Assembly: GCF_000424065.1 (NCBI RefSeq)
Contig: NZ_AUJE01000036.1
Location: 1 to 39,016 of the forward strand
Reading direction: 5' to 3'
Length of the DNA stretch: 39,016 nucleotides
Origin: Selenomonas ruminantium subsp. ruminantium ATCC 12561
Lineage (GTDB): Bacteria; Bacillota; Negativicutes; Selenomonadales; Selenomonadaceae
In this document: positions 5,973-36,724 of the stretch, one piece after another
How the letters are laid out: each line of letters opens with the position of its first letter
How positions within the stretch are numbered: position 1 is the first letter of the stretch
Program-made: the position numbers and the translations under genes
The notes under the pieces: generated by a model
Seen by the model: the letters and a program-made list of their open reading frames with translations, nothing else
Database searches by the model: none
Told to the model about the DNA's origin: nothing

Positions 5973-6048
5973 AGGGGTATCGCCAAGTTGGTAAGGCACG
6001 GGTCTCTGAATCCCGCATGCGTTGGTTCGAGTCCAGCTACCCCTGCCA
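5973..6048 (+). tRNA. tRNA-Gln (anticodon CUG)
   Basis: 76 nt including an encoded CCA. The acceptor AGGGGTA pairs with TACCCCT; the D arm GCC-AAGTTGGTAA-GGC, anticodon arm CGGG/CCCG with loop CTCTGAA (anticodon CTG), and T arm with GGTTCGAGTCC all fit. The D-arm region is nearly the same as bacterial tRNA-Gln (TATCGCCAAG). The last anticodon-stem pair is a T-T mismatch. It decodes CAG. It is a single tRNA transcription unit with its own promoter and terminator. Confidence 0.95.
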
Positions 6049-7732: not shown

Positions 7733-8686
7733 TTAAAACATATCCTTTTTCCACAGGGCATAAGCTCCCGTTATACTGATGCCAAAGGCTATCATCATAA
7801 TGTAGAAAAAGCCGTGGCTGTCATCGGTAAACGGCACCGGCACATTCATGCCGAAGAAGCTGGATACCACTGTGGGAATAGCGATGATAATCGTCATTGC
7901 CGCCAGGAACTTCATCACGAGGTTCTGGTTATTGGCAATAATGGACGTAAAGGTATCGGCCATACGGGCGAGAATCTTACTGTACATCTCCACCATTTCC
8001 TTGGCCTGCTTGTTCTCGATAATAACATCTTCCAGCAAATCCTCATCTTCCTCATACGCCTTGAGAATCGGCGTGAGGGCCGGATTATTGCGCATGCGCA
8101 AGAGCTTATCAAGCACCGCACCATTAGAACGGATAGCCGCGTTAAAATACGTCAGGCCTTTCTGCAGCTCCAACAGGCGCAGGATTTCGCTGTTCTTCAT
8201 ATCATGGCGCAACTGGTTTTCAATATCGTCGGAAAGCTTGCTAATCTGACGCAGATAGCGCAGATAGAAGGTCGCCGACTTGTACAAAATCTGGAACAAA
8301 AAGCGGGTTTTCTTGTAGGTACGGAAAAGCTTTGCCGTACGCTCATTGAACTCTGCCATAACCGGCGTTTCTTCCAGACAAACCGTGATGATATAGTCTT
8401 CGCTGACAATAATGGCCAAAGGCAGGGCATCGTAGCTGTCCTCGCCCCGGTTCACGGCTACGTTAGTCAGAACCATGACGGAATCATCCTCAATATCCGT
8501 ATGGGAACGCTCCTCATCATCGAGTGCGGAACGCAAAAAGTCCGGGTCAACCTCAGTGAGATTGCTGACCACTTTCAGCTCATAAGGCGTAGGGTCAACA
8601 ATATTTATCCAGGCCCCCTTCTCCAGGGTCTTAAGCGTCAACTCCTGCAAAGGGCCGCTTTCCAAGGATTTGTAAATCTTTAGCAT
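7733..8686 (-). CDS. corA: CorA family magnesium/divalent cation transporter
   Basis: 317 residues: a large cytoplasmic helical domain, then two C-terminal membrane segments. The signature GMN is at about 279-281 (SSFFGMNVPVP), at the end of the first membrane segment, and the protein ends in the basic KKDMF expected inside the cell. CorA pentamers carry Mg2+ (also Co2+/Ni2+) inward. Start ATG 8684-8686 with ribosome site GAGAGGAGAT. A leader of about 160 nt with competing helices lies upstream, suggesting control by an RNA element. It is followed by a DedA gene. Confidence 0.93.
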   Translation of the reverse strand: MLKIYKSLESGPLQELTLKTLEKGAWINIVDPTPYELKVVSNLTEVDPDFLRSALDDEERSHTDIEDDSVMVLTNVAVNRGEDSYDALPLAIIVSEDYIITVCLEETPVMAEFNERTAKLFRTYKKTRFLFQILYKSATFYLRYLRQISKLSDDIENQLRHDMKNSEILRLLELQKGLTYFNAAIRSNGAVLDKLLRMRNNPALTPILKAYEEDEDLLEDVIIENKQAKEMVEMYSKILARMADTFTSIIANNQNLVMKFLAAMTIIIAIPTVVSSFFGMNVPVPFTDDSHGFFYIMMIAFGISITGAYALWKKDMF

Positions 8687-8691
8687 GGATA

Positions 8692-8846
8692 TCTCCTCTC
8701 TATATGGAGAGCACCATGCCCATTATCTTATGCTGCCAGGATAATGGTGCTGACGCTCCCTATTGTAAATGTGCATCGCTTTGGTTTTACCGTATCAGGG
8801 TGATCGTCCATTATCCTCACCAGCCTTTCTGTCGAAATTTTTTCCG
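8692..8846 (-). promoter_or_regulatory. Structured corA leader with mutually exclusive helices
   Basis: Read on the minus strand, element 1 GGATAATGG (8808-8816), element 2 CCATTATCC (8739-8747) and element 3 GATAATGG (8720-8727) give two exclusive helices, 1:2 and 2:3. Helix 2:3 can be extended by GAGC (8755-8758) with GCTC (8709-8712). The same GCTCTC stretch can otherwise form a 5-bp hairpin, CTCTC/GAGAG (8707-8711 with 8696-8700), that touches the ribosome site at 8692-8697. This is the layout of a translational riboswitch or attenuator. I do not recognise the M-box consensus in it. Confidence 0.55.
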
Positions 8847-8852
8847 CCTACA

Positions 8853-8882
8853 ATTATAAACCTTGCAGCTCCCACTTGTCTA
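8853..8882 (-). promoter_or_regulatory. corA promoter
   Basis: On the minus strand: TAGACA (8877-8882), 18 bp, TATAAT (8853-8858). Transcription should start near 8846, giving a leader of about 160 nt before the corA ATG. Confidence 0.7.
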
Positions 8883-8906
8883 CAATAATTTCGCACAAAT
8901 AGAAGC

Positions 8907-8934
8907 GGAAAAAGCCTGCTGTCGGGCTTTTTCC
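8907..8934 (-). terminator. Terminator of the chemoreceptor gene
   Basis: GGAAAAAGCC (8907-8916) pairs perfectly with GGCTTTTTCC (8925-8934). The stem itself carries the T-run, and the hairpin lies 27 bp after the chemoreceptor stop. Confidence 0.8.
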
Positions 8935-8961
8935 GGTTCCGTATTTCTATGCTATTGAAGC

Positions 8962-11137: not shown

Positions 11138-11476
11138 TGGTGGAGATGAGGAGAATCGAACTCCTGTCCGAAATACATCCACATCACAAGGCATTATCGC
11201 AATAGCTGGAGTATGCCAGCATCATAGAAGCGCAACTCTGGGATTCAGAGTTCCCCACCACCTTGTTTTGCGAAAACAAGGAAAACTGCTGCGCTTATTT
11301 GAAACCCTCAGCCCTGCCCGCAGCTAGTGATACCGAGGGGGCTGCTAAGCCGAAGCTTAGGCAGCGTATGCGTAATCGAATTCGTCAATTACATTTAGCG
11401 GTTAAGAGTTAGGCTTCATAACCATTGGCCTGCGAACCTCGTGGCTTCAATACCCCGTCGAAACCATTACATCCCC
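11138..11476 (-). ncRNA. ssrA: Transfer-messenger RNA (tmRNA)
   Basis: 339 nt. The 5' end GGGGATG pairs with CATCTCC before the 3' ACCA, forming the tRNA-like acceptor; TGGTTTCGACGGGG and the T-arm GGAGTTCGATTCTCC are hallmark tmRNA sequences. The tag frame ends at 11357-11359 and reads ...NVIDEFDYAYAA-stop (codons 11360-11395); the first tag residue is not certain. Its AYAA end resembles the hydrophobic ALAA ends that ClpXP reads. tmRNA with SmpB rescues stalled ribosomes. Promoter: TTGACA (11520-11525), 18 bp, TATGCT (11496-11501). A strong terminator lies 3' of it. Confidence 0.97.
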
Positions 11477-12264: not shown

Positions 12265-13299
12265 TTATTTGTCCTGCAATGTATTATCGGCTTCCATCAT
12301 CAGCCTGTCAAAATCGCTGATATAAGCCTTATCCTGCAAAACTCTGTACTGTTCAAATTCACTTTCAGCAAAAGCTTTGGCTATAGCCGCTGATACTTTG
12401 CCTTTATCATGTAGGATTTCCGCATCGTTGAACTGCAGGAAAGCATCCAGTTTATCTGCCCAATCAGCCATGGTCATCGGAATATGACGGCGGGCTTGAC
12501 GGGTGGCATAATCCAGATACATTGTGACAATCTCGTTAAGTTCCTGCATCTCTTCTTTAGCCAAATAGTTTTTGGCAATCGACACATCAGCCTTTACGAT
12601 TTTGCCGTCAGGGGCATTTTTCCATGATGTCAGTCCCATATGTTCCTTTTTATGGTCAGCCCTCTGCATGATAAGTTCTGCGGCGGTACTGCCATGGACA
12701 GCATAGTGCATTTTATTCTGCACCGTGGCAAAGAACTCTCGCGTTGTCTTGCTATCCAGCGTGTAATCAACCGCTGTAGCATAGATATCCGTGATTTTCT
12801 GATAGAAACGCCGCTCACTGGCACGAATCTCTTGAATCTCAGATATCAGATGGTCGAAATAATCTTCGTCAAAAATCTGACCGTTAATCAAACGATTCTT
12901 ATCCAGCACATAGCCTTGCTTGGCAAAGGTGTCCAAAACTTTTGTAGCCCATTGGCGGAACTGAATAGCACGCTGAGAATTCACCTTATACCCAACAGCA
13001 ATAATTGCTGACAATGAGTAGAACTTGTATTGATATGTTTTACCGTTATCTGCAACTTGTGCAATTTTTGCACAAGTTGAACCCTCATCCAATTCCCCAT
13101 CTTCAAATACTTTTTTCAGATGCTTGCCAATAACACTACGGTCAACATCAAACAGTTCTCCCATTGCCTTCTGCGTCAACCATACATCATGGTCTTGCAC
13201 ACGCACTTCGATAGAATCCGCCCCGGCATCTTTAGTGAATACCAGAAAATCTACTGTACTGTTGCGGATGTTTGCCTTATTCTTTTTATCATTTTCCAT
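12265..13299 (-). CDS. RhuM family virulence-type protein
   Basis: 344 residues. The N-terminal part (about 25-125) carries a DNA-binding-like region (VWLTQKAMGELFDVDRSVIG, FYSLSAIIAVGYKVNSQRAI) typical of the RhuM family, named from a Salmonella pathogenicity island and widespread in genomic islands; its biochemical role is unknown. The rest is helical (SERRFYQKITDIYATAVDY, MYLDYATRQARRHIPMTMAD). It stands 17 bp after the ZIP gene, so it may be read from the addBA operon or on its own. Start ATG 13297-13299 with GAAGGGAAG upstream. The neighbouring Rrf2 pseudogene suggests this gene arrived by insertion. No restriction-modification genes are nearby. Confidence 0.88.
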   Translation of the reverse strand: MENDKKNKANIRNSTVDFLVFTKDAGADSIEVRVQDHDVWLTQKAMGELFDVDRSVIGKHLKKVFEDGELDEGSTCAKIAQVADNGKTYQYKFYSLSAIIAVGYKVNSQRAIQFRQWATKVLDTFAKQGYVLDKNRLINGQIFDEDYFDHLISEIQEIRASERRFYQKITDIYATAVDYTLDSKTTREFFATVQNKMHYAVHGSTAAELIMQRADHKKEHMGLTSWKNAPDGKIVKADVSIAKNYLAKEEMQELNEIVTMYLDYATRQARRHIPMTMADWADKLDAFLQFNDAEILHDKGKVSAAIAKAFAESEFEQYRVLQDKAYISDFDRLMMEADNTLQDK

Positions 13300-36588: not shown

Positions 36589-36724
36589 GAAATCCGGCAT
36601 TTTTCTTTCGGCTTTCGCCTAGACAGGCTTTGGCTCAATGCAAACCATACACAAAGACCTCCACTGGACACTTCCCTGACCAAGCCTCCAGAATCAACGG
36701 TGAAGATACGTCAAACGTTATCTT
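36553..36724 (-). ncRNA. Candidate small RNA upstream of the PBECR4 gene
   Basis: A promoter (36731-36759) and a terminator (36553-36588) define a transcript of about 170 nt with no good start codon and ribosome site. Likely helices: CTGGA with TCCAG, AGGCTTGG with CCAAAGCCT (one bulge), and GGC-GAAA-GCC. Alternative: the stretch 36635-36763 is an open frame (TKPDKCYYDCKITFDVSSPL, then WSGKCPVEVFVYGLH) without ATG, GTG or TTG start in the right place, which may be a decayed gene end in phase with PBECR4. Confidence 0.45.

Follow-up and report, generated by a model that had tools for sequence, protein, structure and literature searches.

In Salmonella, the ORF mgtQ lies upstream of mgtB and aborts its own translation; its four-strand logic with acidic codons has experimental support (PMC8092293). 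Acidic residues early in a nascent chain destabilise ribosomes, an effect that Mg2+ counteracts (PMC11282234, PMC9718836). Another enterobacterial leader, mgtL, precedes mgtA, carries an early acidic/proline start (EPDP) before a Mg2+ importer gene and acts via Rho-dependent termination (PMC11282234). Among Gammaproteobacteria, the corL/corA motif combines a uORF with two alternative structures before corA (PMC11552253, PMC6429828). The corL uORF has a UUG start and few acidic or proline residues and is Rho-mediated (PMC11552253), and the corA motif has been reported from Gammaproteobacteria and metagenomes only (PMC6429828). In the literature examined, the use of acidic nascent-chain ribosome destabilisation as an environmental sensor is known from a few enterobacterial leaders.

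The leader studied here precedes a corA gene of Selenomonas ruminantium subsp. ruminantium ATCC 12561, on a contig analysed as a single stretch of 39,016 nt (the window). It resembles mgtQ in that a short ORF with early acidic codons stands before a Mg2+-transporter gene (here of the CorA family) and control would be translational. The scheme is also alike: pairings 1:2 and 3:4 alternate with 2:3, 3:4 hides the ribosome site of the transporter gene, and a ribosome on strand 1 favours 2:3. In contrast, mgtQ is an ORF of 8 codons inside an operon, whereas the corA uORF has 27 codons and lies in a 5' leader; the peptide, the transporter family and the phylum differ as well, and element 2 is placed near the uORF end. 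The early acidic/proline start is shared with mgtL, but the pairings predicted here point to the corA ribosome site. The start codon and peptide are unlike those of corL. The M-box (RF00380) is likewise a leader RNA controlling Mg2+-related genes, yet it has no match in the window or in any of 22 genomes of the genus. The uORF2 that accompanies the mycobacterial M-box is, like the corA uORF, conserved at its N-terminal end, where one proline is constant (PMC12810186). A search of the open-access literature found no report of a corA uORF in the Negativicutes.

Layout of the corA leader

The features of the locus are as follows.

7733 to 8686, minus strand: CorA-family metal transporter gene, 317 aa (ORF with ATG start, GMN motif and Pfam PF01544)
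8853 to 8882, minus strand: candidate sigma-70-type promoter of the corA leader, TAGACA-18 nt-TATAAT (consensus match only, 11 of 12 positions)
8815 to 8830, minus strand: extended Shine-Dalgarno of the uORF, AGAAAGGCTGGTGAGG (GAAAGG and TGGTGAGGA invariant in 21 genus leaders)
8728 to 8811, minus strand: leader uORF of 27 codons plus stop, MDDHPDTVKPKRCTFTIGSVSTIILAA, beginning MDDHPDTVKPKRC (ORF, conserved in related leaders)
8808 to 8817, minus strand: element 1, AGGATAATGG, the Shine-Dalgarno end and ATG of the uORF (pairs with element 2)
8738 to 8751, minus strand: element 2, AGCACCATTATCCT, within the uORF close to its end (pairs with element 1 or 3)
8720 to 8727, minus strand: element 3a, GATAATGG, third string of the first-pass annotation (found in 6 of 21 genus leaders)
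8706 to 8720, minus strand: element 3b, GGCATGGTGCTCTCC, anti-ribosome-site strand (its 8717-8710 part is able to pair with 8751-8744 in element 2)
8682 to 8698, minus strand: element 4, corA Shine-Dalgarno (GAGGAGA) and start codon (pairs with element 3b in the MFE structure)

The product of the gene scores 170.5 bits against PF01544 (cut-off 27) in Pfam and matches the CorA chains 4cy4 and 4ev6 of the PDB with an E value of about 1e-16. NCBIfam TIGR00383 also matches (E 6e-30), but its 104.7 bits fall under the curated cut-off of 200.75, so that the product can be called no more than a probable magnesium importer. As the first-pass annotation had noted, a good promoter (8882-8853 on the minus strand) precedes a leader of about 160 nt, and the predicted fold of this leader beats 200 of 200 dinucleotide shuffles (z -3.45). 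Between the promoter and a chemoreceptor-like gene (10947-8962), a terminator-like hairpin at 8906-8935 on the minus strand is probably the transcript end of that gene.

The first-pass annotation had read the leader as a three-element helix switch, and its strings do lie on the minus strand where it placed them: AGGATAATGG at 8817-8808, CCATTATCCT at 8747-8738 and GATAATGG at 8727-8720. What it overlooked is the uORF, whose ribosome site and start are element 1. We take AGAAAGGCTGGTGAGG to resemble a sequence complementary to the end of 16S rRNA, and the block GAAAGG..GGTGA upstream of the uORF is presumably an unusually complete Shine-Dalgarno. Alternative conserved pairings before a CorA-family gene are indeed found, but they involve four elements, and the literal third string is not among the conserved ones. 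GATAATGG occurs in just 6 of 21 genus leaders and is therefore not the conserved part; conserved instead is its neighbour GGCATGGTGCT (8720-8710), formerly regarded as an extension. In the predicted fold this neighbour is the partner of the ribosome site and start codon of corA. The uORF stop falls between elements 2 and 3.

Conservation of the uORF and its peptide start

Within the genus, corA was found in 21 of 22 genomes, and all 21 of their leaders carry the uORF. A codon-level pattern of the uORF occurs in 20 of 189 genomes of the family, every one of them in the genus. In one genus genome (G010:C39:35360-36370; L022 and L023) the corA match is split into residues 1-53 and 75-317 within a single 349-aa frame, which suggests an insertion.

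Beyond the genus, the start of the peptide mostly persists. Among 60 leaders from 27 other Selenomonadaceae genera, uORF starts read MDDHPSS, MDGDHPS, MDADHPS, MDDTPLQP, MDEYPES, MDAGPEP and others. We formulated a criterion (a ribosome-site-like sequence, at least 2 acidic residues in positions 2-7 and a proline in positions 2-8 after an acidic residue), fixed after inspection of the 81 Selenomonadaceae leaders; it selects 72 of these 81, against a mean of 3.4 and a maximum of 9 in 100 shuffled sets. One of the 72 (L100, at -294) is probably a chance hit. Each peptide start carries just two or three acidic residues. For a base rate, ORFs 150 aa or longer were called mechanically in 30 Selenomonadaceae loci; of these 281 ORFs, 3 have the acidic/proline start and none has its strict form.

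For the class as a whole, 121 leaders were collected: corA matches were present in 176 genomes of the family, 93 of which were used, and 28 leaders came from other families. A regular expression tailored to the data recovers the uORF in 103 of them. Outside the Selenomonadaceae 20 of 28 leaders have it, and these represent 13 families (for example MDVDRPS, MDVDIPS and MDIDRPR); the M-D-(x)-D-x-P start is mostly kept across 42 genera and 14 families. The 18 leaders in which the tailored expression did not find it belong, within the Selenomonadaceae, to our genus labels g11 (7), g14, g18 and g24 (1 each), and elsewhere to family labels f2 (1), f14 (1), f28 (3) and f30 (3). By eye, two leaders (L075 of g18 and L096 of g11) contain uORFs, MDDHPG and MDDPPRS, that appear to overrun the corA start in another frame, a geometry that differs from the remaining leaders. 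Of 20 loci scanned over 510 nt around the leader, 7 also contain a tRNA gene (L087, L135, L136, L144, L148, L151 and L152).

The link to corA was followed with the strict pattern GGTGA-N5-ATG-GAY-GNN-GAY-NNN-CC, which represents the M-D-x-D-x-P form and does not reach the window's own M-D-D-H-P. Of the 214 class genomes searched, 30 contain it, each in a single copy. All 30 places lie upstream of corA, at about 120-330 nt when the coordinates were compared by eye; the reversed pattern gave no match in the 214 genomes. In a sample of the phylum it was found in 1 of 398 genomes, a member of the Selenomonadaceae, and the remaining 397 include 374 from outside the class. The uORF, its conserved acidic/proline start and its association with corA are results of the computation.

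With one leader per genus, 41 of 42 genera could be aligned, the other having the start MDAGPEP. All 41 have an acidic residue at position 2, and 39 keep the acidic site that follows; the proline is also kept in 39, while the residue preceding the proline may be H, R, I, P, T, N or Y. The codons of Asp2 divide into 20 GAC, 20 GAT and one GAA, and the extra residue in the M-D-(x)-D start amounts to one whole codon. Since the acidic and proline residues are kept while the codons and the residue before the proline vary, and since the extra residue is a whole codon, the conserved uORF start points to a property of the peptide rather than of the RNA. We had also considered a GGUGA:UCACC hairpin around the uORF start that seemed conserved within the genus, and rejected it: other families read GAC CGA CC or GAC ATA CC at this place, with the acidic and proline residues kept. 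GGTGA is in our view better read as part of the extended Shine-Dalgarno.

Alternative pairings and ribosome position

The first-pass annotation had looked to covariation among related corA leaders, and helix 1:2 provides some. In the 21 genus sequences, 207 of 209 cells pair (99.0%), compared with 38-61% for partners displaced by 1-3 columns, and one pair occurs as UA, AU and GU. The 2:3 pairing fares well across genera and less so within the genus: the two elements pair better than the average of their shuffles in 75 of 82 leaders (16 of 98, in which element 3 is not downstream of element 2, were left out) and, by genus, in 35 of 36, but in just 15 of 19 leaders of the genus; 7 of these 19 reach the best tenth.

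Folding calculations were carried out on 98 of the 103 leaders with a uORF, five having been dropped because the uORF was more than 230 nt from corA or its stop less than 25 nt before it; spacer shuffles preserved dinucleotides and both ribosome sites. The best spacer partner of the uORF start region has an energy of -19.4 kcal/mol, against -13.6 in shuffled spacers, and the best partner of the corA ribosome site -17.9 against -12.4 kcal/mol. These partners are ordered around the uORF stop, in that element 2 belongs to the uORF in 38 of 41 genera, at a median of 22 nt ahead of the stop's last nucleotide, and element 3 follows the stop in 39 of 41, at a median of 14 nt. The sequence of four ordered elements is thus a computed result, as is the predicted effect of a ribosome at the start. 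Masking the uORF start with a ribosome made the corA site cheaper to open, at 8.0 instead of 11.8 kcal/mol, whereas the shuffled leaders gave 7.7 without and 7.8 with the ribosome. The mean switch is 3.76 kcal/mol against -0.04 with shuffled spacers, and 3.65 against -0.12 when one leader per genus (41) is taken. It exceeds 0.5 kcal/mol in 79 of 98 leaders and the leader's own shuffled mean in 85 of 98; in 7 of 98, a start-bound ribosome raises the opening cost by more than 0.5 kcal/mol.

In these calculations the empty leader is clearly separated from the start-occupied one. Compared with one at the start, a ribosome at the uORF stop opens the corA site nearly as well in the genus (opening cost 7.95 against 7.32 kcal/mol) and moderately less well overall (9.2 against 8.0 kcal/mol), and completed and aborted translation are therefore separated only weakly to moderately; with the uORF fully covered, the cost is 10.4 kcal/mol. 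In the window leader with its start masked, the MFE structure forms 2:3a yet retains the hairpin over the corA site. The opening cost nevertheless drops from 13.3 to 8.0 kcal/mol, presumably because the longer 2:3b pairing becomes available.

A candidate Mg2+-sensing attenuator and its alternatives

Judged on its sequence, the corA leader appears to have the testable features of translation-aborting Mg2+ leader ORFs. Like mgtL and mgtQ it has a short ORF with a ribosome site before the transporter gene, here of the CorA family, and early acidic residues with a proline; a ribosome on the uORF is predicted to decide between structures that exclude each other. Our preferred reading, which we hold to be probable, is that the leader is a ribosome-read translational attenuator that senses Mg2+ through a translation-aborting leader peptide. 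We infer translation of the uORF, its abortion, Mg2+ as the signal and low Mg2+ as the ON state. For mgtQ of Salmonella the same four-strand arrangement with acidic codons is supported by experiment. Against this reading count the weak separation of completed from aborted translation, the 7 leaders in which a start-bound ribosome hinders opening, the hairpin retained in the masked window leader, the less convincing 2:3 pairing within the genus, the small number of acidic residues per peptide start and the 18 of 121 leaders in which the tailored expression found no uORF.

The strong Shine-Dalgarno would load ribosomes onto the 27-codon uORF, where the Met-Asp-(x)-Asp-x-Pro start would destabilise them and Mg2+ would oppose the destabilisation. 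Destabilisation of ribosomes was reportedly the subject of a 2017 paper. With ample Mg2+, ribosomes would traverse the whole uORF, disrupting element 2 shortly before they terminate, and 1:2 would form between passages, hiding the uORF start and leaving element 3 for the corA ribosome site. Full translation and an empty leader would thus both let element 3 hide the corA ribosome site and start (OFF). At low Mg2+, frequent initiation followed by stalling or drop-off in the first codons would keep element 1 covered without reaching element 2; free element 2 could then capture element 3, so that the corA site opens and corA is translated (ON).

For the Negativicutes at large, we incline, by a little over even chances, to the view that the ribosome itself is the Mg2+ sensor of corA through an old M-D-x-D-x-P peptide and a four-element switch, which would have arisen apart from mgtL, mgtQ and corL. 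If true, nascent-peptide Mg2+ sensing would span much of a class and include the first case from the Bacillota found in the literature searched, and the leader would supply Mg2+ control in a genus where no M-box was found. The class-wide set, with dozens of natural variants, would reveal which peptide features matter (acidic spacing, proline, the one-codon insertion) and make the generality of ribosome-based Mg2+ sensing testable.

It is unlikely, though far from negligible, that the uORF and the switch are real and the signal is something other than Mg2+, early pausing reporting instead on charged tRNA-Pro, EF-P, EttA-type factors or ribosome stress. The uORF, the pairings and the ribosome-position results would all be equally expected, one proline is conserved in 39 of 41 genera, and in E. 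coli the early acidic residues of nascent chains, mgtL among them, are a target of EttA (PMC11282234). However, the acidic residues are at least as constant as the proline, there is no conserved run of Pro-Pro, and every place with the strict motif lies before a CorA-family gene.

We consider it improbable that a translated uORF acts on corA translation in a constant way, by coupling or by blocking, and senses nothing. Such coupling would fit the majority of leaders, in which the uORF stop lies a few tens of nt before corA; yet the stop varies between 29 and 201 nt upstream and in one leader (L068) lies 26 nt inside corA, and a conserved peptide start is something that coupling does not need. 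Across the class, between 84 and 321 nt separate the start of the uORF from corA.

The first-pass annotation had favoured a riboswitch in which the leader RNA itself binds Mg2+ or another divalent ion and its helices switch without a ribosome, and this now looks quite improbable. It would account for alternative helices before a metal-transporter gene and for the stable fold, but element 1 proves to be the Shine-Dalgarno and start of a conserved uORF. The class-wide constants are a strong ribosome site, an acidic-x-acidic-x-Pro start in the first uORF codons and the pairing elements, with a variable distance between uORF start and corA, and the acidic and proline residues survive codon changes and a one-codon insertion. 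The annotation had seen by eye no match to the M-box or to other classes, and Rfam release 15 (NiCo, yybP-ykoY, cobalamin and the rest) gave no match at gathering score in the leader or in 20 leaders from outside the genus, and a relaxed scan of the window leader, up to E 10, gave no relevant match. An Rfam match to the gammaproteobacterial corA motif/corL, should that motif be in Rfam, did not appear in the window either. The best sub-threshold match, with E 0.043 and 22.6 bits where 55 are required, was to Thr_leader on the strand opposite to the leader, and the reading strand matched miRNA and snoRNA families alone, far under gathering. An attenuator with an intrinsic terminator was also set aside, terminator-like sites being present in 7 of 103 leaders and absent from that of the window. 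The sensor is likelier to be the translating ribosome than a metal-binding RNA. The case also illustrates how what looks like an orphan riboswitch may turn out to be a leader peptide, with its ribosome site serving as one of the switching strands.

That the pairings arise by chance or as a by-product of two purine-rich ribosome sites per leader is hardly credible: two Shine-Dalgarno sequences do have similar complements and short strings do recur randomly, but the switch is lost when the spacer is shuffled with its dinucleotides and the two ribosome sites preserved, and the order around the uORF stop is kept in 38-39 of 41 genera.

Elsewhere in the window, a 344-aa ORF (12265-13299, minus strand) appears to resemble RhuM-family proteins. 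Rfam places a drum RNA (RF02958) at 36593-36702 on the minus strand, with 52.3 bits against a gathering score of 43; to our knowledge, the function of this RNA is not known. A tmRNA lies at 11138-11476 (minus strand) and a tRNA gene at 5973-6045 (plus strand).
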